Part shown: positions 11,565-64,000 of the stretch, one piece after another
How the letters are laid out: each line of letters opens with the position of its first letter
How positions within the stretch are numbered: the first letter of the stretch is position 1
Virus record (IMG/VR): IMGVR_UViG_3300027896_000017
Location: 1 to 64,000 of that record
Strand: one strand, 5' to 3'
DNA length: 64,000 nucleotides
DNA from: a virus
The notes under the pieces: generated by a model
The model's input: the letters and a program-made list of their open reading frames with translations, nothing else
Databases searched by the model: none
What the model was told of the DNA's origin: nothing
Program-made: the position numbers and the translations under genes

Positions 11565-11925
11565 GGGGGTGCACGGTTTCGACAGATTTGATGAAAATTA
11601 AGTTGCATGTCGTGGATGATTGTTGGCCACGTTAAACATCAATCACGTATCAACTGCCGAAGATTATTCTTTCGCAGAAATGCTGAAAGTCGCCTAATTA
11701 AAGGTGACGAGGGTTAGTGATCATGCTCTGAATCATTAATCTACTAATGAGCTAGAGATTATATGGGTGGCCTTCGTGACATATAATTTTGAAATTATCT
11801 GAGGTTGATCTTGAGATGGTATTGCTGGTATCGAGTTTCAAGATCATATCTAAAACCAGCTAAACATGTAGTAACTTAATTAGAGTCGAATTTGGACAGG
11901 AGTTCAATTCTCCTCACCTCCACCA
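11565..11925 (+). ncRNA. ssrA: tmRNA (transfer-messenger RNA)
   Basis: The 361-nt RNA starts GGGGGTGCACGGTTTCGACA and ends with an encoded CCA. The acceptor GGGGGTG pairs with CACCTCC, including G3-U70, the alanine identity pair. The T arm is AGGAG-TTCAATT-CTCCT. The tag frame starts at GCC 11656 (A at -4) and reads AEDYSFAEMLKVA, then TAA 11695-11697. It ends KVA rather than the usual LAA/ALAA, so proteolysis of tagged products may differ. Host-type rescue of stalled ribosomes is the known role; what a phage copy does is inference. Confidence 0.96.
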
Positions 11926-45480: not shown

Positions 45481-48400
45481 TTATGTCTCCTGACTTAAGG
45501 CTATTAAGTCCCATTTATCATCAGCCGCATGATAAATAAATCCCATATACAAAGTCTTTGATAAAACAGTTGTAGTAGGCAAAGCATTCCCCATTGCCCG
45601 ATACTTATCTCCAAAAGAAATAGCTCTTGCTGTTCCATTATCTTTTATTCTGATTATTAATTTTTCTCCCAATACCGGCGTTGATGTAGAATGATTATTT
45701 ATAGTTATTGCACCAGCTAAGGCGGTTATTGCGTAAATATCATATGTATCTATTTCAGGTGTCAAAGAAGTGTTAGAGGCCACACTTAAAGATCTTGGCT
45801 GATTCCTTTTATTAGTAAATGTAGTTGTGCTACTTGCAGTAACTCCTGCATATCCCGAAACACCAGAAGTTCCAGATGTTCCAGATGTTCCAGATGTCCC
45901 TGATGTTCCAGACACCCCAGACGTTCCAGATGTTCCAGAATACCCAGACGTTCCAGACGTTCCAGACGTTCCAGACGTTCCAGACGTTCCAGACGTTCCA
46001 GACGTTCCAGACGTTCCAGATGTTCCAGATGTTCCAGACGTCCCAGATGTCCCAGATGTTCCAGAATATCCACTTGTTCCAGATGTTCCAGATGTTCCAG
46101 ATGTTCCAGATGTTCCAGATGTTCCAGATGTTCCAGATGTTCCAGATGTTCCAGATGTTCCAGATGTTCCAGATGTTCCAGATGTTCCAGATGTTCCAGA
46201 TGTTCCAGAATATCCACTTGTTCCAGATGTTCCAGAATATCCACTTGTTCCAGATGTTCCAGATATTCCAGACGTCCCAGACGCTCCAGACGCTCCAGAC
46301 ACTCCAGACACTCCAGATGTGCCACTATATCCAGAAACCCCTTGAACAGTAAATGTAGTTTCTACCCAAGAAGAATCAGTCGTGCCCTGATATGTCCATG
46401 TCGCATTATGAGCATTAGCTTCACTATTTATAGCGACCACTCTAATTATAATTCTGTCTGTACTAAGTATTGATATTGGAGATTCTATTGTCCAATAGGT
46501 GTCATATGCGGTCACATCCACTGTAAGGGCCCCTGTAGATCCTACTACACCTCCAGATAGGGCGGTTACCACACCTGTAGCGGATCGTTTTTCTATTACA
46601 TAACCCGCTGATACATGCGCATTATTTGCAGAAAATCTACCATGAAATTTCCACGTTCCAACTGGTATTGAGGTCTCGCCTGGAACCGTTGCAACTGTTA
46701 GATAGCTATCAAAAGGAACATATGAAGAAGCGCTGGTTATTCCAGTAAGATTTTCTGTTGTTTCAGTACCTGTTGCCGGAACTCTTGTCAATTTTTCACA
46801 ATTTATTGTAATGGTAGCGGTAGTATTATTATTTGAATTAGTTAAAGAACCATATCCATTAGTAACAGTTATTGTCGAAGCAGTAACTGAGCGTATTGCC
46901 CATTCGTGGGTATCCATGGCTGTTGAAGAATTTGTAACTATAAATTTTTGACCAACTACCCAATTATCAGTTACAAAACTACCCGCGCCACTTCGAACTA
47001 TCGTGCCGGCGGCAGCAGAAAATGTAAAAGTATCTCCACCTGAAGCTTGTGAAGTAGGAGTGGTAATATCAGAACTTGTAGTATCAAACCAAAATTTTTG
47101 TCCAGTTACAGCCCCTTGTACTCCACTATACCCACTATTTCCAGAATATCCAGATGTCCCGGATGTTCCAGATGCTCCAGATGTTCCAGATGCTCCAGAC
47201 GCTCCAGATGTTCCAGAATATCCGCTTGTTCCAGACGCCCCAGACGCTCCAGACGCCCCAGATGTTCCAGATTCTCCAGATGTTCCAGATTCTCCAGATG
47301 TTCCAGATTCTCCAGACGTTCCAGATTCTCCGGATGTTCCAGATTCTCCAGAATATCCAGATTCGCCAGATGTTCCAGATGTTCCAGATACTCCAGATGC
47401 TCCAGACGTACCAGACGCCCCAGAATATCCTGACGTGCCAGAATAACCTTGTAATCCTGGTTCATCAGAAAAATTTATAGGTCTTGCAAAATCTTCTGGG
47501 ACAGTTTCTAAATTCCATCTTTTTGCATACATGAATTGAAAGTATACGTCTTCAATGAATGCTTTTTCTACTTCGCCATCATTATAAATATATGTAGTAA
47601 GTGTCCATGTTCCCGAATATCCAGAAATTCCGCCAGAATGCGTAATCTTACCATAATATTCATTGCCGCTTTCATCTGCTATTGGATTATGATTAATACC
47701 ATTTCTTAAATTACATATATCTTCATAGCCGCTTACCGGGACGCCTTCAGTTGTGTCAGGAAAAGAATCAACCGCCCTTTCTCCAATCATAGAATCGCTA
47801 ATATCATATTGAGAAATTCCTGAATATCCAGAAACGCCCACAAAAGCTTGTGTATTAGATATAATTTTTCTACCTTCAAAATTTGCGGTACTTCCTGATA
47901 TTCCAGATTCTCCAGAATATCCTGATTCACCAGAATATCCTGATTCACCAGAATATCCTGATTCACCAGAATATCCAGATTCGCCTGACGTTCCAGATGT
48001 CCCAGATGTCCCAGATGTTCCAGATGCCCCAGATTTTCCTGAAGTTCCAGATGCTCCAGATTCTCCAGAATATCCTGATTCTCCAGAATATCCAGATTCG
48101 CCTGATGTTCCAGACGCTCCAGATGTTCCAGATGTTCCAGACGTTCCAGATTTTCCTGAAGTTCCAGATGTTCCGGATTCTCCAGAATATCCTGATTCTC
48201 CAGAATAACCCGATTCTCCAGAATATCCTGATTCTCCAGAATATCCTGATTCTCCAGAATATCCAGATTCACCTGATGTTCCAGACGTTCCAGACGCCCC
48301 AGATGTTCCAGATGTTCCAGACGTTCCAGATTTTCCTGAAGTTCCAGATGTTCCGGATTCTCCAGAATATCCTGATTCTCCAGAATATCCTGATTCTCCA

Positions 48401-51180
48401 GAATATCCAGATTCGCCTGATGTTCCAGACGTTCCAGACGCCCCAGATGTTCCAGATGTTCCAGACGTTCCAGATTTTCCTGAAGTTCCAGATGTACCAG
48501 ATTCTCCAGACGTTCCAGATTCTCCAGAATATCCTGATTCCCCAGAATACCCTGATTCTCCAGAATATCCTGATTCTCCAGAATATCCTGATTCTCCAGA
48601 ATATCCAGATTCACCTGATGCTCCAGATGTTCCAGACGTTCCAGATGTTCCAGATGTTCCAGATGCTCCAGATGTTCCAGATTTTCCTGAAGTTCCAGAT
48701 ATACCAGATTCTCCAGATGTTCCTGATTCTCCAGAATACCCTGATTCTCCAGAATATCCTGATTCTCCAGAATATCCTGATTCTCCAGAATATCCAGATT
48801 CACCTGATGTTCCAGATGTTCCAGACGTTCCAGATGTTCCAGATGTTCCAGATGTTCCAGATGTTCCAGATGTTCCAGATGTTCCAGACGTTCCAGATTT
48901 TCCTGAAGTTCCAGATGTACCAGATTCTCCAGAATATCCTGATTCTCCAGAATATCCTGATTCTCCAGAATGTCCTGATTCTCCAGAATATCCAGATGTC
49001 CCGGATGTTCCAGATGCTCCAGATGTTCCAGATGCTCCAGACGCTCCAGATGTTCCAGAATATCCGCTTGTTCCAGACGCCCCAGACGCTCCAGACGCCC
49101 CAGATGTTCCAGATTCTCCAGATGTTCCAGATTCTCCAGATGTTCCAGATTCTCCAGACGTTCCAGATTCTCCGGATGTTCCAGATTCTCCAGAATATCC
49201 AGATTCGCCAGATGTTCCAGATGTTCCAGATACTCCAGATGCTCCAGACGTACCAGACGCCCCAGAATATCCTGACGTGCCAGAATAACCTTGTAATCCT
49301 GGTTCATCAGAAAAATTTATAGGTCTTGCAAAATCTTCTGGGACAGTTTCTAAATTCCATCTTTTTGCATACATGAATTGAAAGTATACGTCTTCAATGA
49401 ATGCTTTTTCTACTTCGCCATCATTATAAATATATGTAGTAAGTGTCCATGTTCCCGAATATCCAGAAATTCCGCCAGAATGCGTAATCTTACCATAATA
49501 TTCATTGCCGCTTTCATCTGCTATTGGATTATGATTAATACCATTTCTTAAATTACATATATCTTCATAGCCGCTTACCGGGACGCCTTCAGTTGTGTCA
49601 GGAAAAGAATCAACCGCCCTTTCTCCAATCATAGAATCGCTAATATCATATTGAGAAATTCCTGAATATCCAGAAACGCCCACAAAAGCTTGTGTATTAG
49701 ATATAATTTTTCTACCTTCAAAATTTGCGGTACTTCCTGATATTCCAGATTCTCCAGAATATCCTGATTCACCAGAATATCCTGATTCACCAGAATATCC
49801 TGATTCACCAGAATATCCAGATTCGCCTGACGTTCCAGATGTCCCAGATGTCCCAGATGTTCCAGATGCCCCAGATTTTCCTGAAGTTCCAGATGCTCCA
49901 GATTCTCCAGAATATCCTGATTCTCCAGAATATCCAGATTCGCCTGATGTTCCAGACGCTCCAGATGTTCCAGATGTTCCAGACGTTCCAGATTTTCCTG
50001 AAGTTCCAGATGTTCCGGATTCTCCAGAATATCCTGATTCTCCAGAATAACCCGATTCTCCAGAATATCCTGATTCTCCAGAATATCCTGATTCTCCAGA
50101 ATATCCAGATTCACCTGATGTTCCAGACGTTCCAGACGCCCCAGATGTTCCAGATGTTCCAGACGTTCCAGATTTTCCTGAAGTTCCAGATGTTCCGGAT
50201 TCTCCAGAATATCCTGATTCTCCAGAATATCCTGATTCTCCAGAATATCCAGATTCGCCTGATGTTCCAGACGTTCCAGACGCCCCAGATGTTCCAGATG
50301 TTCCAGACGTTCCAGATTTTCCTGAAGTTCCAGATGTACCAGATTCTCCAGACGTTCCAGATTCTCCAGAATATCCTGATTCCCCAGAATACCCTGATTC
50401 TCCAGAATATCCTGATTCTCCAGAATATCCTGATTCTCCAGAATATCCAGATTCACCTGATGCTCCAGATGTTCCAGACGTTCCAGATGTTCCAGATGTT
50501 CCAGATGCTCCAGATGTTCCAGATTTTCCTGAAGTTCCAGATATACCAGATTCTCCAGATGTTCCTGATTCTCCAGAATACCCTGATTCTCCAGAATATC
50601 CTGATTCTCCAGAATATCCTGATTCTCCAGAATATCCAGATTCACCTGATGTTCCAGATGTTCCAGACGTTCCAGATGTTCCAGATGTTCCAGATGTTCC
50701 AGATGTTCCAGATGTTCCAGATTTTCCTGAAGTTCCAGATGTACCAGATTCTCCAGACGTTCCAGATTCTCCAGAATATCCTGATTCTCCAGAATATCCT
50801 GATTCTCCAGAATATCCAGATTTACCTGATGTTCCAGATGTTCCAGATGTTCCAGATGTTCCAGATGTTCCGGATTTTCCTGAAGTTCCAGATGTACCAG
50901 ATTCTCCAGAATACCCAGATTCTCCAGAATATCCTGATTCTCCAGAATATCCAGATTCACCTGATGCCCCAGATGCTCCTGAATATCCTGAATATCCTAT
51001 ACTATCTGGATTTATAGTATGATAAGTCCCATGGGAATCTCTATATCCAAGATTGCCGGTATCATTTTCAATGGCTATTTGACCAAGATCTAAATGTTGG
51101 CGCAATAAAGTTTCAGAATTATTGATCTCGGTAATATGCACCTGTTCGGCAAGCGGGTCTTCATATATATCGTCTGACAT
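45481..51180 (-). CDS. Giant collagen-like tail fibre
   Basis: 1899 residues from ATG 51180 (a TTG 5 codons earlier has no site). N-terminus SDDIYEDPLAEQVHITEINN...DTGNLGYRDSHGTY as in the 39416 fibre. Most of the length is Gly-X-Ser triplets (GYS, GES, GTS, GKS). It is broken by a globular insert of about 130 residues (TANFEGRKIISNTQAF...FARPINFSDEPGLQ) that occurs twice and by other folded insertions (VTGQKFWFDTTSSDITTPT...). The end is a folded tip. A 1842-bp tandem duplication doubles the middle. Trimeric long fibre expected. Confidence 0.9.
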   Translation of the reverse strand: MSDDIYEDPLAEQVHITEINNSETLLRQHLDLGQIAIENDTGNLGYRDSHGTYHTINPDSIGYSGYSGASGASGESGYSGESGYSGESGYSGESGTSGTSGKSGTSGTSGTSGTSGTSGKSGYSGESGYSGESGYSGESGTSGESGTSGTSGKSGTSGTSGTSGTSGTSGTSGTSGTSGESGYSGESGYSGESGYSGESGYSGESGTSGESGISGTSGKSGTSGASGTSGTSGTSGTSGASGESGYSGESGYSGESGYSGESGYSGESGYSGESGTSGESGTSGTSGKSGTSGTSGTSGASGTSGTSGESGYSGESGYSGESGYSGESGTSGTSGKSGTSGTSGTSGASGTSGTSGESGYSGESGYSGESGYSGESGYSGESGYSGESGTSGTSGKSGTSGTSGTSGASGTSGESGYSGESGYSGESGASGTSGKSGASGTSGTSGTSGTSGESGYSGESGYSGESGYSGESGYSGESGISGSTANFEGRKIISNTQAFVGVSGYSGISQYDISDSMIGERAVDSFPDTTEGVPVSGYEDICNLRNGINHNPIADESGNEYYGKITHSGGISGYSGTWTLTTYIYNDGEVEKAFIEDVYFQFMYAKRWNLETVPEDFARPINFSDEPGLQGYSGTSGYSGASGTSGASGVSGTSGTSGESGYSGESGTSGESGTSGESGTSGESGTSGESGTSGASGASGASGTSGYSGTSGASGASGTSGASGTSGTSGYSGESGHSGESGYSGESGYSGESGTSGTSGKSGTSGTSGTSGTSGTSGTSGTSGTSGTSGTSGESGYSGESGYSGESGYSGESGYSGESGTSGESGISGTSGKSGTSGASGTSGTSGTSGTSGASGESGYSGESGYSGESGYSGESGYSGESGYSGESGTSGESGTSGTSGKSGTSGTSGTSGASGTSGTSGESGYSGESGYSGESGYSGESGTSGTSGKSGTSGTSGTSGASGTSGTSGESGYSGESGYSGESGYSGESGYSGESGYSGESGTSGTSGKSGTSGTSGTSGASGTSGESGYSGESGYSGESGASGTSGKSGASGTSGTSGTSGTSGESGYSGESGYSGESGYSGESGYSGESGISGSTANFEGRKIISNTQAFVGVSGYSGISQYDISDSMIGERAVDSFPDTTEGVPVSGYEDICNLRNGINHNPIADESGNEYYGKITHSGGISGYSGTWTLTTYIYNDGEVEKAFIEDVYFQFMYAKRWNLETVPEDFARPINFSDEPGLQGYSGTSGYSGASGTSGASGVSGTSGTSGESGYSGESGTSGESGTSGESGTSGESGTSGESGTSGASGASGASGTSGYSGTSGASGASGTSGASGTSGTSGYSGNSGYSGVQGAVTGQKFWFDTTSSDITTPTSQASGGDTFTFSAAAGTIVRSGAGSFVTDNWVVGQKFIVTNSSTAMDTHEWAIRSVTASTITVTNGYGSLTNSNNNTTATITINCEKLTRVPATGTETTENLTGITSASSYVPFDSYLTVATVPGETSIPVGTWKFHGRFSANNAHVSAGYVIEKRSATGVVTALSGGVVGSTGALTVDVTAYDTYWTIESPISILSTDRIIIRVVAINSEANAHNATWTYQGTTDSSWVETTFTVQGVSGYSGTSGVSGVSGASGASGTSGISGTSGTSGYSGTSGTSGYSGTSGTSGTSGTSGTSGTSGTSGTSGTSGTSGTSGTSGTSGTSGTSGYSGTSGTSGTSGTSGTSGTSGTSGTSGTSGTSGTSGTSGTSGYSGTSGTSGVSGTSGTSGTSGTSGTSGVSGYAGVTASSTTTFTNKRNQPRSLSVASNTSLTPEIDTYDIYAITALAGAITINNHSTSTPVLGEKLIIRIKDNGTARAISFGDKYRAMGNALPTTTVLSKTLYMGFIYHAADDKWDLIALSQET
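47148..50831 (-). repeat. 1842-bp tandem duplication inside the fibre gene
   Basis: Sequence around 47148-48989 recurs 1842 bp further on (for example the segments beginning ATTTTTCTACCTTC at 47860s and 49700s) with near-perfect identity, including third positions. 1842 is 614 codons, so the frame is kept. Smaller Gly-X-Ser repeats within make length change by recombination likely. Confidence 0.9.
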
Positions 51181-51224
51181 AATATTTTCTTTCAATGGTT
51201 AAGTGCATGTTTAATATTCAATAA

Positions 51225-56906: not shown

Positions 56907-57656
56907 ATGGGAAAGCTGCATGAACACATTGCGGTGGAAAATGACATCAAAGGAACGCTATCGAAAATTATAGCAGAAGCCGCGACTACGTTCACCAAAA
57001 AAGACACGCATTTTGATGAGTCTTCAAGGCTTTATACTCCGTTTGTAGATGGAGATAAAGATATTCCAGAAACTGAAGTAACGCATATGGTTACTACAGT
57101 AAAAGACAAGCTTGACTATGTATTTCCATATCTGGCCAAAAACCTAGATCATACATATCAGAAGGAATTGGCCAATACGGTAGCAAAAGCTGATGTGGTT
57201 CTGGAGAACGGGACGGTTTTGGCAGAAAAAGTGCCGGTGCTTGTTCTGGTTCAGCTGGAGAATACATTAGAAGGCTTCAGAAAAAATGTTCTGGAAATCA
57301 TTCCCACATTGGATCCCAAGATTGATTGGGAACCTGATACGTCAGCTAAAAATGTGTGGAAGACCCGCAATGCCATCAAAACAGTCAGAACGAAGAAAAT
57401 AAATAAGCCAGTAATCGTAGTGCCGGCTTCAGACAAGTTTCAGGCACAAGGGCAATTGGTGCCTGAAGACATCCCTGTGGGCGAATTTGTCAAAACAGCT
57501 CGCACAGGAAGGTTCTCACCTCTTCAGAAAAGTGATATTCTTGCTAAAATGGACGTAATCATAGCTGCTGTAAAAAAGGCTCGCGCAAGGGCCAATGATA
57601 CGCCTATTGAGAACGTAACAATTGGCAAGAAGATTGTGGATTTTATTCTTGGTTGA
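56907..57656 (+). CDS. Conserved phage/bacterial protein, unknown function
   Basis: 249 residues, AAAGGAG site. Starts MGKLHEHIAVENDIKGTLSKIIAEAATTFTKKDTHFDESSRLYTPF. It resembles a widespread uncharacterised family I recall with the same opening (MGKL.E..AVE.D). Mostly helical with a lysine-rich middle (RNAIKTVRTKKINKPVIVVPASDKFQAQGQLVPEDIPVGEFVKT). GC-richer than its surroundings. An L1-stalk-like RNA begins 8 nt after its stop and is likely co-transcribed. Confidence 0.82.
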   Translation: MGKLHEHIAVENDIKGTLSKIIAEAATTFTKKDTHFDESSRLYTPFVDGDKDIPETEVTHMVTTVKDKLDYVFPYLAKNLDHTYQKELANTVAKADVVLENGTVLAEKVPVLVLVQLENTLEGFRKNVLEIIPTLDPKIDWEPDTSAKNVWKTRNAIKTVRTKKINKPVIVVPASDKFQAQGQLVPEDIPVGEFVKTARTGRFSPLQKSDILAKMDVIIAAVKKARARANDTPIENVTIGKKIVDFILG

Positions 57657-57663
57657 ATATTAA

Positions 57664-57760
57664 TTTATATATTGCTAGTGTAGGATAGTCGGGAGGCTTT
57701 GAAGTGGGGGCGCTAGTTTCCATGGAGCCAAAAGTGGAATACCGATCTGCAATATATAAA
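57664..57760 (+). ncRNA. 23S rRNA L1-stalk mimic
   Basis: TTTATATATTGC (57664-57675) pairs perfectly with GCAATATATAAA (57749-57760). The enclosed 57678-57743 matches the E. coli 23S L1-stalk strand (H76-H78, about nt 2100-2180) at about 54 of 66 positions in my hand comparison. It includes the exact run GGGAGGCTTTGAAGTG and CATGGAGCC. Positions that form the three-dimensional L1 site are thus kept, while the outer helix is phage-specific. A terminator follows at 57784. The comparison uses remembered rRNA. Confidence 0.92.
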
Positions 57761-57815: not shown

Positions 57816-57918
57816 ATAGACACAATAGTCATATTTATATTCAGATTAATGAATAAAACTCAGGCTATTATGTGTCCCATGCTAAAAACAAAAATGGTCG
57901 ATTTTGGTCTACAAAATC

Positions 57919-58024
57919 GTTATCCAAGCCCAATCACCGGTTCAAATCCGGTCTGGCTCTCTAAGAACATCTATATGATGTTTTTAAAGAGCCGGTAGCT
58001 TAGAGGTCAAAGCGGGGTGATAAC
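57919..58024 (+). tRNA. Circularly permuted tRNA-like gene
   Basis: The 3' half comes first: GTTATC (57919), CCC (57929-57931), T arm ACCGG-TTCAAAT-CCGGT (57936-57952), acceptor CTGGCTC and U73 (57953-57960). A 28-nt linker with hairpin AACATC/GATGTT follows, then the 5' half: GAGCCGG (57989-57995), TA, D arm GCTT-AGAGGTCA-AAGC (57998-58013), GGG (58015-58017), GATAAC (58019-58024). The acceptor pairs 7/7 with one G-U, the D and T arms are canonical, GGG pairs with CCC, and GATAAC with GTTATC. The anticodon is not resolvable. No group I core is visible. Confidence 0.82.
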
Positions 58025-58100
58025 AGTAAAATACGATTTGTTGTAACCATTATCTTCTATGTAGCTCATCCTATAAAGATGATAACTATATAACTGACCG

Positions 58101-59319: not shown

Positions 59320-62300
59320 CTACCACGTATAATTCCCCGTAACGTACTCGGGGATAGGGTGATTTAACGGATTGCTGATTGATTTCCAACTCTGTGTGGT
59401 TCCTTCTTCAAGAACTTTTGCAATTCTATTGTGGGCCAATCTGGCTATCCAGTCCTCAGATGATTGGGCTTTTGCCTGAATTCCAGTAGGAGTTAAAAAT
59501 GGCTCATGTTTAATTCTGTCTTTAAAAACTTTGATTCTTTTGAATCCCCTTTCATCAAGTTTATTAATAACACTTTCATCTATTTTAGTATTCGCTTTAA
59601 ATGGCCCATAATTTTGAGCCAGATGATCCCCTTCAGTATCATAAATACTTTCTTCTTTTAAATTATTATTATTGTAATGTTCAACAGTCGTTAAAGGCGC
59701 GACGTCACCTTTTAAATAATTAGGATGACTGCCTGGTTCAAGTATTCTTGTGGTATTAGTTAATCCTCTGACTACAGTTTCAATATCGCGTTTATCCAAT
59801 TTACCTTCCATCAATTCATTTATATGATTAACAAGAAATTTTTGAGTTTCAGGCATACCTTTATATTTTAAAATATCATGAGCCGACGGAGTGCCAGTGC
59901 TTAACAGATCGCCGGATTTGACTAAAACACCAGGTTTAACTAATGGTTGATTGTTGGCATCAATATATCGTATTTCTTGTTTTTCTCCATTATCCAAATG
60001 AACATCCCATCCGCCAATGGGAGATTTTTTAATATCTTTTACAACACCATCGATACTCGCCAATGTGGCTTTGTCAGGATTATTTTTAGTAAATCGTAAC
60101 GTATCAAATAATTGATCAAATACTGTAGATCCTGGTTTTTTCTGAATTTGTAATGCGCCTCCGGTATGGAATGCTTTCATCGCCATGTTTAATGAAGGCT
60201 CAGTGATCGTGTGGGCTGAGATGATTCCAATATTATCTCCAATATTAGGTTTTTTTCCATCATAATTTACACCATATGAAAACGAAGAAAAGCCGTCTCC
60301 AGGAGTTGGGTCCGTTATTGGAGACTGAACATAAACTTTTTTAATTCCATGTTGGCTTAATTTATTCGCCACATCAGATGTTACAATATCATTTCGTTTT
60401 GCTATAATTTTTCCATTATCAGCTTTTGCGTCTTGCGCAAGGAACCTGTTTAATATGCCTTTATTGTCATTAATATCATATTCAAAACCTTTATTATCAA
60501 CCGGCTCATCGTGAGTTATTCTGGTTTCATAAATTGAATTAATCAAATCTTTTGTAAGCCATCCAGGCTTTGAAGAAGAAATTGATTTTTTAATATTACC
60601 ACCACGGGCCCCATGTGCAGCAGACCAATATCCAAAAGTATCCAATCCTTCAGAATAAGATTTAGTAATAGGCAGAGGTATAGGTCTATCTTCCGCATCA
60701 GTAACTATTCCAGGCATTAAAGCAATAGCGCTTATATTATCAATACCTTTAGTTCCTCCTGATTTCAAGCCAACGCCTATCATGGTATTTTCGCCATATT
60801 TATTTTCAAGTTCTTTTCTACCCTTCATTGTCATGGAACTGAACGCTTTAACTATAGACATGGGGTCTTTTTTATCTGAATTTTTTTCCGCCTCTCTTAC
60901 AAGAGAATCTCTTAAATCTCTATCAACAACCGTATCTGAAACACCAAGGGTGAAGCCAAAAATAGTAGAATAGTTATTTCCAACATCTTTAATTTTATCG
61001 GCTAATCCTAAAGCAATTTTTCCATTGTGTTTTTTGGTGACATCTCTAATCCACGATTCTACATTTTTACCATTCAATTCGATATCGTATTTTTTTAAAT
61101 CATCAGGAACCACACTGTTAATTTCATGCATACCAAAGGGAGCTTTTTTATCTCCAACCGTTACGGAGTCGGCATAGGTAAATTTATTCTGTTTAAAAGC
61201 ATTACGAGCCTGTTCCAGCGTATCAAATTTTAGACCAGTATCCTGTCCACCTTTACCCTTGGAGACAAGCCAGCTGCCTACAATCATGTCCATTTGAGGT
61301 ACATTAAGAACTGAATCGTATCCAGTTTTAAGCATAGAGGCTGAGGGTTTCATTTTTTCAGCTTCGGCAATGGCTTTGGGGGAAATGGGGACGTGTAACT
61401 GAAAGGTATCAAAAACAGGAATTCCATTTGAACACATAAACGTCATTGGCCCCGGAACGGTAATGTCATATAAACATTGTTTTTTATCAATAAAATTAAC
61501 TTTATCGGCGGTAAGCCATGTTATAGTATTATTATTAACAATTTCAATCCATTCACTTGGCAAACAATTATTAGACATAGAAATTATTTTTTTAGACATT
61601 AATCTCCCAAGCAAACCTTTTCGACAAGCCTTTCTCATTGAATCTCGCATTATTGGATCTTTAATAAATTTTTCGCATTTATCATACAAATCTTTATTCC
61701 AAGGCACCCTATCTACCATATTAATTGTTCTATTGGTAGCCATTGATGAAGATAAAAATTTTCTATATATTAAAGATTTTTCTTTATTCTTAAATATTAA
61801 TTCTTTGCCCCTTATATCAATAGAAGACATGCCAATATTATAATATGAATTATTATTTTTACTATAATAACTTATTAAACATGATATATTTAAACTTTTA
61901 CACATAGTTAAAATTTCGTCGGCAAGACGCAAAGATGTTGTTGCATATCTAAATTTAAAAGATCCATTACTATTAGAAAAGCCTATACTTCCGTCGGTAT
62001 CAAGCATTCCAGATAACAAACCAAGTTTAAATTCTTTAGGGGAAGACATATAACATGGCGGCAAGTGTTTGTTATAACAATTATGCCCAATTATATTTCT
62101 TAAATTTTCTGCCAAAGAAATATTTGATAATGATATATTTTTTCCAATATATTCATTTTTACTATTACAAATTTTCTTTTTATATTCATTAGACCAAAAT
62201 GTTGGTTCTGTTTTTAACAATTTTATAATATTAGATTTAAAAGAATTTTCAATATCTTGATGAATGGTCGCTATGTCGATTTTTTTTCCACTAGTACTAC

Positions 62301-64000
62301 CGTTTCCTATCATGATTCCTAAAAAATATCCAAATTCTTTTGTTAATTCTACACTATCAACACAATTAATAGACATTTTGTTTCTTTTAGAATAATTATT
62401 TAATAAAATATGTGTCACTGATTCCTCAATATTAAGTTGTTTAACTTTAGGTATTTGTTTTCCTACAATTTGTTTAGGGCTAATTTTTTCAAGATTCCAA
62501 GTATTAGTATTTAAATACACTGCACTATGATCGTCAGATAATATTAATGAATTTTTATCAGACATAGTAATTATACATGAGTTTAAATTTGGATGAATAG
62601 AAAAATGAGATACCGGTACAGATATGATTTGTTTTGTTTTATTGTCGATTGTTATAATTTTTATTCCTTTAGGAACCTCATATTCAATATTATTGCTATT
62701 TGTTAGCCGTTGAGTTCCCTCGATTCGGGGGAAATCTTCAATATTAATATGTATAATCTTTTCGCTGTCATTAATAATTAATCTATTTAATGTTGGCATA
62801 CTAACAATCCTTTCTGATAAGTATTTAATTGGATTATAATAAATATACTTATTTGAAAGGAATTGTGCAAGATATTTTTCATGTAAATTATTTAATTTAT
62901 TTCTATCAAAATCTCCGCCAAAATGAATTATTTTCTCATTCTTAATTTCATGTTTAATAATATTAAAATTAACTATAACAAAGACACTTTCCAACCCGCT
63001 ATCTCCGTCAAAATCCCCTCCAAAGTTTTTACTTACCACTACTCCTGGCACCTCTATAGATTTACCTTCTGTCAATATCGGTTTAAATGCAGTCATATTC
63101 CATCTGTGTAATGATGGCGCTCTGTTAGCTATTATTAATCGCTCATCAGCCACAACGTCCCTAGCTCTTTCTGCAACAGAAGTTTTATCTTCTATTTGTT
63201 TTTGTGCTTCAAGAGGCGTATACCCCCAACTCACCATTTTTTTCATTATAAAAGGTCTGAATATTTTAGAAGCCATTTCTTTAGGTATACCCATCTGATC
63301 TCCACCCAAATCTGGATTTAAAATAATAGTGGAGCGACCAACAAGATCCTGGCGTCTTTCTAAAACCTTATCTTGAAAGAAGCCTTCTTTTGATTGATTA
63401 GAACCCGCAATCTGTTCTACAAATCCTTTTTTATTTTTAATTCTATTAAGATATGAAGTTGGCGCTTGAAGGCCGGTAACAGATTTTAAGTCGTTATATA
63501 ACTGCCCCCTGGCTTCGGCTAATTGTAAGTTTTTAATATCCTCATTAGGGATTGATTTATCAAGTTGAGATTTTAAATCTTTTAACGCATTGGCTGTATG
63601 AGCTGTCTGTTGATACAAATCATTTATATCAGACATTATAATGGCGCCATCTCCAGCCATAGGTATCACCGGTCTGTATTTAGAAGGAGTGACCAATACG
63701 TTAGAAACTAAATAATCGGCAGGCTTCATTTTATGTTCTTTTAGTGCCCTTAAATATTTAATTTTTTTATTAAGTTTATCTATTTTTGTTGAATTTCTTT
63801 CATTTTTTAAAGCTTCAGTAGCTTGGTCTAAAGTTTCATTTACATCAATTGCTCCCAACATCGTCTCAAGGGCAGGTCCACCTGAAATGGAATCAGGAGT
63901 TCCAGGGCTAACTAGTTGTCCCGTTTTTTTATTAATAAATTGTTTGCCAGTAATGACGCCTTCCAATTTTATTAAAGGCATATCTAAAAGATTGGCTGCG
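59320..64000 (-). CDS. Phage RNA polymerase beta-prime-like subunit, partial, intein-bearing
   Basis: The gene runs off the window end, so the N-terminus is missing; the ATG at 63981 is internal, with open frame above it. Extein landmarks in order are YRPVIPMAGDGAIIMSDINDLYQQ, RRQDLVGRSTIILNPDLGGDQMGIPKEMA, NRAPSLHRWNMTAFKPILTEGKSI, the catalytic NFGGDFDGD then TFQLHVPISPKAIAEAE, trigger/bridge region SEGLDTFGYWSAAHGARGG, and IGIISAHTITEPSLNMAMKAFHTGGA. These match bacterial beta-prime throughout. About 1022 extein residues are visible. It directs phage-specific transcription; other subunits must lie elsewhere. Confidence 0.95.
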   Translation of the reverse strand, partial: AANLLDMPLIKLEGVITGKQFINKKTGQLVSPGTPDSISGGPALETMLGAIDVNETLDQATEALKNERNSTKIDKLNKKIKYLRALKEHKMKPADYLVSNVLVTPSKYRPVIPMAGDGAIIMSDINDLYQQTAHTANALKDLKSQLDKSIPNEDIKNLQLAEARGQLYNDLKSVTGLQAPTSYLNRIKNKKGFVEQIAGSNQSKEGFFQDKVLERRQDLVGRSTIILNPDLGGDQMGIPKEMASKIFRPFIMKKMVSWGYTPLEAQKQIEDKTSVAERARDVVADERLIIANRAPSLHRWNMTAFKPILTEGKSIEVPGVVVSKNFGGDFDGDSGLESVFVIVNFNIIKHEIKNEKIIHFGGDFDRNKLNNLHEKYLAQFLSNKYIYYNPIKYLSERIVSMPTLNRLIINDSEKIIHINIEDFPRIEGTQRLTNSNNIEYEVPKGIKIITIDNKTKQIISVPVSHFSIHPNLNSCIITMSDKNSLILSDDHSAVYLNTNTWNLEKISPKQIVGKQIPKVKQLNIEESVTHILLNNYSKRNKMSINCVDSVELTKEFGYFLGIMIGNGSTSGKKIDIATIHQDIENSFKSNIIKLLKTEPTFWSNEYKKKICNSKNEYIGKNISLSNISLAENLRNIIGHNCYNKHLPPCYMSSPKEFKLGLLSGMLDTDGSIGFSNSNGSFKFRYATTSLRLADEILTMCKSLNISCLISYYSKNNNSYYNIGMSSIDIRGKELIFKNKEKSLIYRKFLSSSMATNRTINMVDRVPWNKDLYDKCEKFIKDPIMRDSMRKACRKGLLGRLMSKKIISMSNNCLPSEWIEIVNNNTITWLTADKVNFIDKKQCLYDITVPGPMTFMCSNGIPVFDTFQLHVPISPKAIAEAEKMKPSASMLKTGYDSVLNVPQMDMIVGSWLVSKGKGGQDTGLKFDTLEQARNAFKQNKFTYADSVTVGDKKAPFGMHEINSVVPDDLKKYDIELNGKNVESWIRDVTKKHNGKIALGLADKIKDVGNNYSTIFGFTLGVSDTVVDRDLRDSLVREAEKNSDKKDPMSIVKAFSSMTMKGRKELENKYGENTMIGVGLKSGGTKGIDNISAIALMPGIVTDAEDRPIPLPITKSYSEGLDTFGYWSAAHGARGGNIKKSISSSKPGWLTKDLINSIYETRITHDEPVDNKGFEYDINDNKGILNRFLAQDAKADNGKIIAKRNDIVTSDVANKLSQHGIKKVYVQSPITDPTPGDGFSSFSYGVNYDGKKPNIGDNIGIISAHTITEPSLNMAMKAFHTGGALQIQKKPGSTVFDQLFDTLRFTKNNPDKATLASIDGVVKDIKKSPIGGWDVHLDNGEKQEIRYIDANNQPLVKPGVLVKSGDLLSTGTPSAHDILKYKGMPETQKFLVNHINELMEGKLDKRDIETVVRGLTNTTRILEPGSHPNYLKGDVAPLTTVEHYNNNNLKEESIYDTEGDHLAQNYGPFKANTKIDESVINKLDERGFKRIKVFKDRIKHEPFLTPTGIQAKAQSSEDWIARLAHNRIAKVLEEGTTQSWKSISNPLNHPIPEYVTGNYTW
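61408..63000 (-). other. Intein with LAGLIDADG homing endonuclease in beta-prime
   Basis: 531 residues inserted between DFDGD and TFQLHVP. Begins SGLESVFVIV (Ser1). Block B-like SLILSDDHSAVYL holds the structural His. Two dodecapeptide motifs FGYFLGIMIGNGS and LGLLSGMLDTDGS form the homing endonuclease. Block F is CLYDITVPGPMTFMCSNG. The C-terminal block reads GIPVFD then Thr, where HN is usual, so the penultimate His is Phe and the terminal Asn is Asp. Splicing by Asp-ending inteins is known but less common. Confidence 0.93.

Follow-up and report, generated by a model that had tools for sequence, protein, structure and literature searches.

A Phage-Encoded Copy of the 23S rRNA L1-Stalk Head, Closed by a Phage Stem, as a Candidate Off-Ribosome tRNA-Handling RNA

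The stretch of viral DNA analyzed here (the window; 64,000 nucleotides, positions 1 to 64,000 of IMG/VR record IMGVR_UViG_3300027896_000017) carries an element at 57664–57760 (+), i.e., a 97-nt RNA, which is best read from its sequence as a dedicated phage small RNA gene consisting of a host 23S L1-stalk head closed by a phage-made stem. The L1 stalk is the arm of the ribosome that holds protein L1 (uL1) and grips departing tRNAs. Free-standing stalks were found in about 11 phage lineages with genomes of 28–412 kb by scanning viral contigs with degenerate patterns. We propose that the element may act as an L1 stalk off the ribosome, both binding uL1 and docking tRNA elbows, and we assign this reading a probability of roughly 0.5.

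The stalk head (H77–H78; E. coli 2110–2180) was delimited by a covariance model and blastn to 57676–57748 (+), and E. coli numbers are obtained by subtracting 55568 from the window position (G2110 is window 57678). In place of the 23S H76, the element has the closing-stem arms TTTATATATTGC at 57664–57675 and GCAATATATAAA at 57749–57760, which pair at 12 of 12 positions, confirming the perfect 12-bp stem described in an earlier note on this DNA; none of 500 shuffles of the flanks paired as well. The 5′ T-loop of the tRNA-elbow platform was placed by alignment at 57680–57685 (GTAGGA, E. coli 2112–2117), and the 3′ T-loop lies at 57733–57739 (AGTGGAA, 2165–2171, with a G at 2169). H77 pairs its 5′ strand at 57688–57692 (GTCGG, 2120–2124) with CCGAT at 57742–57746, whereas E. 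coli has GGTGG and CCACC, showing that two pairs are altered on both sides with the pairing retained. H78 and the uL1-binding junction nucleotides occupy 57695–57729 (2127–2161; GGC..TTTGAAG..CGCTAG..TGGAGCC). The element thus contains the H77/H78 pairing and the conserved junction nucleotides of the 23S L1 stalk, all on the plus strand, and its predicted folding energy is −31.2 kcal/mol vs. −21.3 ± 3.1 for shuffles (z −3.2).

The similarity to 23S ends beyond the stalk head, and the element is not embedded in a 23S gene via H75/H76/H79. Directly upstream is a DUF7873 (PF25283) protein gene of 249 aa at 56907–57656 (+) (Pfam 1.3e-62), homologues of which occur in cultured jumbo phages, and downstream is phage sequence. 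Since the stop codon of this gene lies 7–8 nt before the closing stem, the earlier description of the site as a 3′ UTR is fair.

The relation to 23S was examined by a blastn search of phage and plasmid records with the region as query. Significant matches were obtained, which were annotated bacterial 23S rRNA genes with 82–83% identity over 66 nt (54–55/66) and E values down to 5e-10, in agreement with the proposed L1-stalk copy; the claimed 16-nt exact run, GGGAGGCTTTGAAGTG, is likewise present. When 13 other phage stalks were used to build a covariance model, with the window left out, the window element scored 77.9 bits (E 3e-19), and this was the model's single match both within the 64-kb window and within the 116.8-kb record. 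At the Rfam gathering threshold the element is unreported, and the sole match in the window is a phage tmRNA at 11565–11925 with the tag AEDYSFAEMLKVA; sub-threshold Rfam matches at the locus, e.g., a c-di-GMP-II aptamer at 19.6 bits, were rejected as chance. A contig chimera with host rRNA, which the earlier note had considered unlikely, is excluded for practical purposes because the element lies mid-contig and because a second contig, IMGVR_UViG_3300003852_000012, shares the locus at 100% identity across 12.7 kb. The sequence is moreover diverged and compensated: the nearest 23S sampled is 84% identical to it, and no near-identity runs off the contig end.

Two other features of the window were recorded. 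A long protein encoded at 59320–63981 (−) has a DFDGD motif as in RNA polymerase β′ followed by an endonuclease-like insertion, which is probably an intein. In addition, repeats of about 73 nt with 88–95% identity lie at 48056–50844, within a long ORF at 45481–51195 (−).

The relatives of the window element were found by exact degenerate patterns, which imposed GGAG, GAG.C and TGRRAYAC, as well as ATAG and TGAA in some scans; 23S fragments and chance matches in coding sequence were then removed by context. The stalk phages comprise a temperate betaproteobacterial-type group (L012, L013, L015, L034, L036, L040, L045, L046, L047 and L057), two phages with a protein in common (L014 and L054), three protein-level relatives of 105, 105 and 412 kb (L035, L042 and L052, respectively), phages of 295 kb (L025), 222 kb (L037), 143 kb (L039) and 119 kb (L048, identical with L050), and L033, L051, L055 and the window phage. 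In the betaproteobacterial group (L012, L013, L015, L034, L036, L040 and L045–L047), an Rfam Burkholderiales-2 RNA lies about 75 nt from the stalk on the opposite strand. Each of the 17 phage records searched whole contains one stalk, and none of the 17 contains a uL1 gene, which the same search detects in 14 of 14 control genomes. Among cultured phages (INPHARED), including the DUF7873 carriers, no free L1 stalk was found at blastn sensitivity. Most phage stalks are about equally close to the sampled 23S genes and to one another, suggesting that they may have arisen by several captures rather than from one ancestor, a question which 70 nt are too few to decide.

Several candidates were rejected. 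Paenibacillus phage Pd_22F (MZ092003.1), initially read as a relative, has 23S and 5S in full. In L005, the first 86 nt (1–86) are identical to a deltaproteobacterial 23S (L008) and stop with the contig, so this suspected chimera was left uncounted, as were L003, L041, L049 and L053, which have 23S fragments at the end of a contig or on a short one. Pd_22F, L003, L005, L049 and L053 are viral records with true bacterial 23S and are probably chimeras or misassemblies. Chance pattern matches in coding sequence account for L019–L024, L026–L032, L038, L043, L044 and L056, and when the search for 23S relatives was widened in the phylum of L008, it yielded 23S genes.

Covariation was analyzed in the 13 phage stalks other than the window. 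The H77 and H78 pairs hold in 96.1% of cells, compared with a shuffled mean of 72.0%, and both partners have changed in 12 of 16 pairs; neither the paired percentage nor the covariation score was matched by any of 500 shuffles, and in slid controls the pairing drops to 35–48%. The flanks form new closing stems at p < 0.05 vs. shuffled flanks in 9–10 of 14 phage stalks, those missing this level being L012, L014, L033, L035 and L042 (one count gives 10/14 passing).

Across 26 bacterial 23S sequences, 24 positions are invariant; 21 of these are kept in 14/14 phage stalks and the remaining three (2110, 2148 and 2179) in 13/14, with the H77/H78 junction core of the uL1 site fully kept, although part of this conservation comes from the donor and part was forced by the search patterns. 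A2114 and G2115 are kept while lying outside all patterns that recruited most members, and G2133–A2135 are kept in all four sequences (L048, L051, L052 and L054) from a scan that did not impose them. The retention of the 23S-invariant positions, including the whole junction core, makes it likely that the stalk RNA binds L1. The H77 pairs, in contrast, are more variable in phage stalks than in 23S, and two positions are relaxed: G2116 is G in 7/14 phage stalks vs. 23/26 23S (p 0.018), and U is retained at 2166 in 5/14 vs. 22/26 (p 0.004), both p values being uncorrected for the number of positions. In the ribosome, G2116 touches the 30S protein S7, and the non-canonical pair G2112–A2169 stacks on the tRNA elbow (PMC5309774). 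At 2112:2169, 17 of 19 phage rows have G-A or A-G; of the other two, the window has G-G and L025 has U-A. At the level of sequence, the phage stalks retain the uL1-binding core and, in most rows, the tRNA-elbow platform as well.

The surroundings of the stalks suit a tRNA-related function no less than the L1 sequestration proposed in the earlier note. Same-strand tRNA genes lie near the stalk at seven loci (L025, L035, L042, L037, L039, L048 and L052), and L033 has nearby tRNA genes on the opposite strand. In L035, L042 and L052 the order is tRNA-Arg(tct)–stalk–tRNA-Arg(acg), with the stalk about 16–51 nt before tRNA-Arg(acg). No tRNA was found within the stretch examined around the stalk in the L012 type, L014, L051, L054 or L055. 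Counted by lineage, the association is 6/11 vs. 3/16 control loci, which is not significant (p 0.10), so the link to tRNA rests on the positions within arrays rather than on the count. In the window, the only tRNA nearby, and the next same-strand RNA feature downstream of the stalk, is a candidate permuted tRNA, which ARAGORN detects only with its halves reordered and misses in native order; its 3′ half (about 57917–57960, +) starts about 157 nt beyond the stalk and precedes its 5′ half (about 57989–58026, +), and the anticodon is uncertain.

A second piece of rRNA emerged from a control comparison of an entire 23S gene against 50,697 phage records, once true rRNA contamination, pieces at contig ends and records of ssRNA phages had been set aside. 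The sole isolated internal 23S segment in cultured phages is H43 of the GTPase-associated center (the A1067 arm), about 37 nt long and present in about 18 records, all of them large cultured phages: GAP32, CBB, BF, the pEa_SNUABM group, Kaldavass, XaC1, XbC2, XacN1, 4_4572, pf16, UNO-G1W1, Milchi and Astolliot. A1067 contacts the tRNA elbow in the A/T state. The H43 copies in the cultured phages are intergenic (e.g., GAP32, L080 2501–2538; 4_4572, L081 2501–2537; pf16, L082 2501–2533; also L083, L084 and L085), that of pf16 lying within a tRNA array and those of 4_4572 and Milchi just upstream of tRNA-Met. The stem covaries, with 98.1% paired and two pairs altered on both sides.

H43 also occurs in five of the stalk phages, clearly in three and weakly in two. 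The L037, L042 and L054 phages have the clear copies, with at most two mismatches; the reversed-pattern control gave 0. The weaker ones were found by model, at E 6.6e-7 for the L052 phage and E 1.8e-4 for the L035 phage. The stalk-phage H43 loci are L088 (974–1011, +), L089, L090, L094 and L095. In the L035 phage, H43 immediately follows tRNA-Leu(tag), as it does in L042. H44 is absent from the phage H43 elements, which makes normal uL11 binding doubtful. The 3′ flank of H43, GAGTGACAGTRCTCAGTAAGTGGTGAGGTAGAATG, is common to two related phages (L095 at about 1500, −; L090/L091 at about 1500, −), and the H43 RNA may therefore exceed the H43 arm.

How might such an RNA act? The stalk head of a bacterial 23S would have been captured from a host, and the phage stem would let it fold alone. 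The RNA would be transcribed together with the neighboring gene or tRNA transcript, fold into an L1-stalk head and bind host uL1. The free stalk could then dock tRNA elbows off the ribosome, serving the phage as a tRNA-handling module, and the same RNA might also pull uL1 away from its own mRNA. Capture of uL1 and docking of tRNA are compatible, since uL1 plus the stalk RNA makes up an L1-stalk head. More tentatively, phages may carry a set of autonomous rRNA modules, L1 stalk and H43, in tRNA arrays, which would hold, protect or route tRNAs off the ribosome during infection; the two modules would then represent both tRNA-elbow contact sites of the ribosome.

Alternatively, and as the chief competing explanation, the RNA could be a pure uL1 sponge, which with rRNA-like affinity would remove uL1 from the rplK-rplA leader or from new 50S subunits, with the possible effect at the leader of raising L11 and L1 synthesis once host rRNA synthesis stops. 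The uL1-binding core retained in every stalk and the lack of a uL1 gene in the 17 stalk-phage records are consistent with a sponge, as is the resemblance of the mRNA sites of uL1 to its 23S site, the uL1–23S complex being the more stable of the two (PMC10931766). However, a sponge leaves unexplained the positions in tRNA arrays, the largely retained elbow platform with its compensated 2112:2169 pair, and H43 in the same arrays, and we regard it as a rather unlikely full account. Considering the recurrence in unrelated phages, the frequent tRNA arrays, H43 and the largely kept platform, a tRNA-related role appears no less likely than a simple L1 sponge. The proposal of an off-ribosome stalk that also docks tRNA has its own difficulties in the window, where 2112:2169 is G-G and the sole nearby tRNA is a candidate permuted gene.

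We give less credence to a decoy, i.e., a spare substrate for a host nuclease, toxin or modifying enzyme that hits 23S stalks. Phage tRNAs act as spare substrate against anticodon nucleases, phage tRNA arrays are generally known as sites of countermeasures, and two ribosomal protrusions are copied, all of which would suit a decoy, but the loci give no pointer to such an enzyme and we know of none that attacks or modifies H76–78. Equally improbable is a cis element of the DUF7873 mRNA, at which uL1 or tRNA in the 3′ UTR would set stability or read-through: the short distance from the DUF7873 stop codon speaks for it, whereas elsewhere stalks come after other genes or tRNAs, and at blastn sensitivity no free stalk was found in any cultured phage, including those with DUF7873. 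That the element is non-functional, as captured rRNA debris or an assembly chimera, is very improbable and largely refuted. Genuine cases do occur in the same collections, as in the chimeric records above, but the window element has its phage stem and its compensated sequence mid-contig in two contigs, the same piece recurs in the other lineages, and besides H43 no isolated internal 23S segment was seen in cultured DNA phages.

Several known systems share features with the phage stalks. The bacterial 23S L1 stalk (H76–H78; RF02541 about 2131–2210) resembles them in sequence, H77/H78 pairing, uL1 core and interdigitated T-loops, whereas the phage element lies outside a 23S gene, has no H75/H79 junction, shows relaxed G2116 and U2166, and replaces H76 by unrelated stems of varied sequence and length. 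The uL1 autoregulatory site in the rplK-rplA leader is likewise a case of molecular mimicry, in which the uL1 site is reproduced outside rRNA; in contrast, the phage element is much nearer to 23S and largely retains the tRNA-elbow platform, and, judging from the neighboring genes at the loci and the absence of uL1 genes from the records, it is not upstream of rplK or rplA. GOLLD and ROOL are also structured phage or prophage RNAs near tRNA islands, but they are far larger and not rRNA-derived, and their Rfam models gave no match at the gathering threshold in the window or the scanned stalk loci; GOLLD has been reported as ribosome-binding (PMC12286853). T-box Stem I and RNase P J11/12-J12/11 use the same interdigitated T-loop motif to dock the tRNA elbow off the ribosome (PMC4810234, PMC5309774), though their architecture differs and no anticodon reading or catalysis was seen for the phage element. 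Phage PhiMa05 likewise carries ribosome parts, including uL1 and uL11 (PMC13157829); these are proteins, whereas here the parts are rRNA pieces in phages without a uL1 gene.

Viruses carry tRNAs, tmRNA and some ribosomal proteins. We found no account of a phage L1-stalk or GTPase-center RNA in the open literature, with most subscription papers and preprints outside this scope, nor any of a virus that has a functional domain of rRNA as a separate gene. The recurrence in unrelated phages, the rebuilt closing stems and the sometimes accompanying second rRNA piece point to selection and suggest repeated co-option of a piece of rRNA by phages as a translation tool of their own. Since H43 is present in cultured phages, part of the question is soon testable. 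The phage stalks offer a compact natural test of off-ribosome L1-stalk function and provide a new lead on phage control of translation and tRNA pools.
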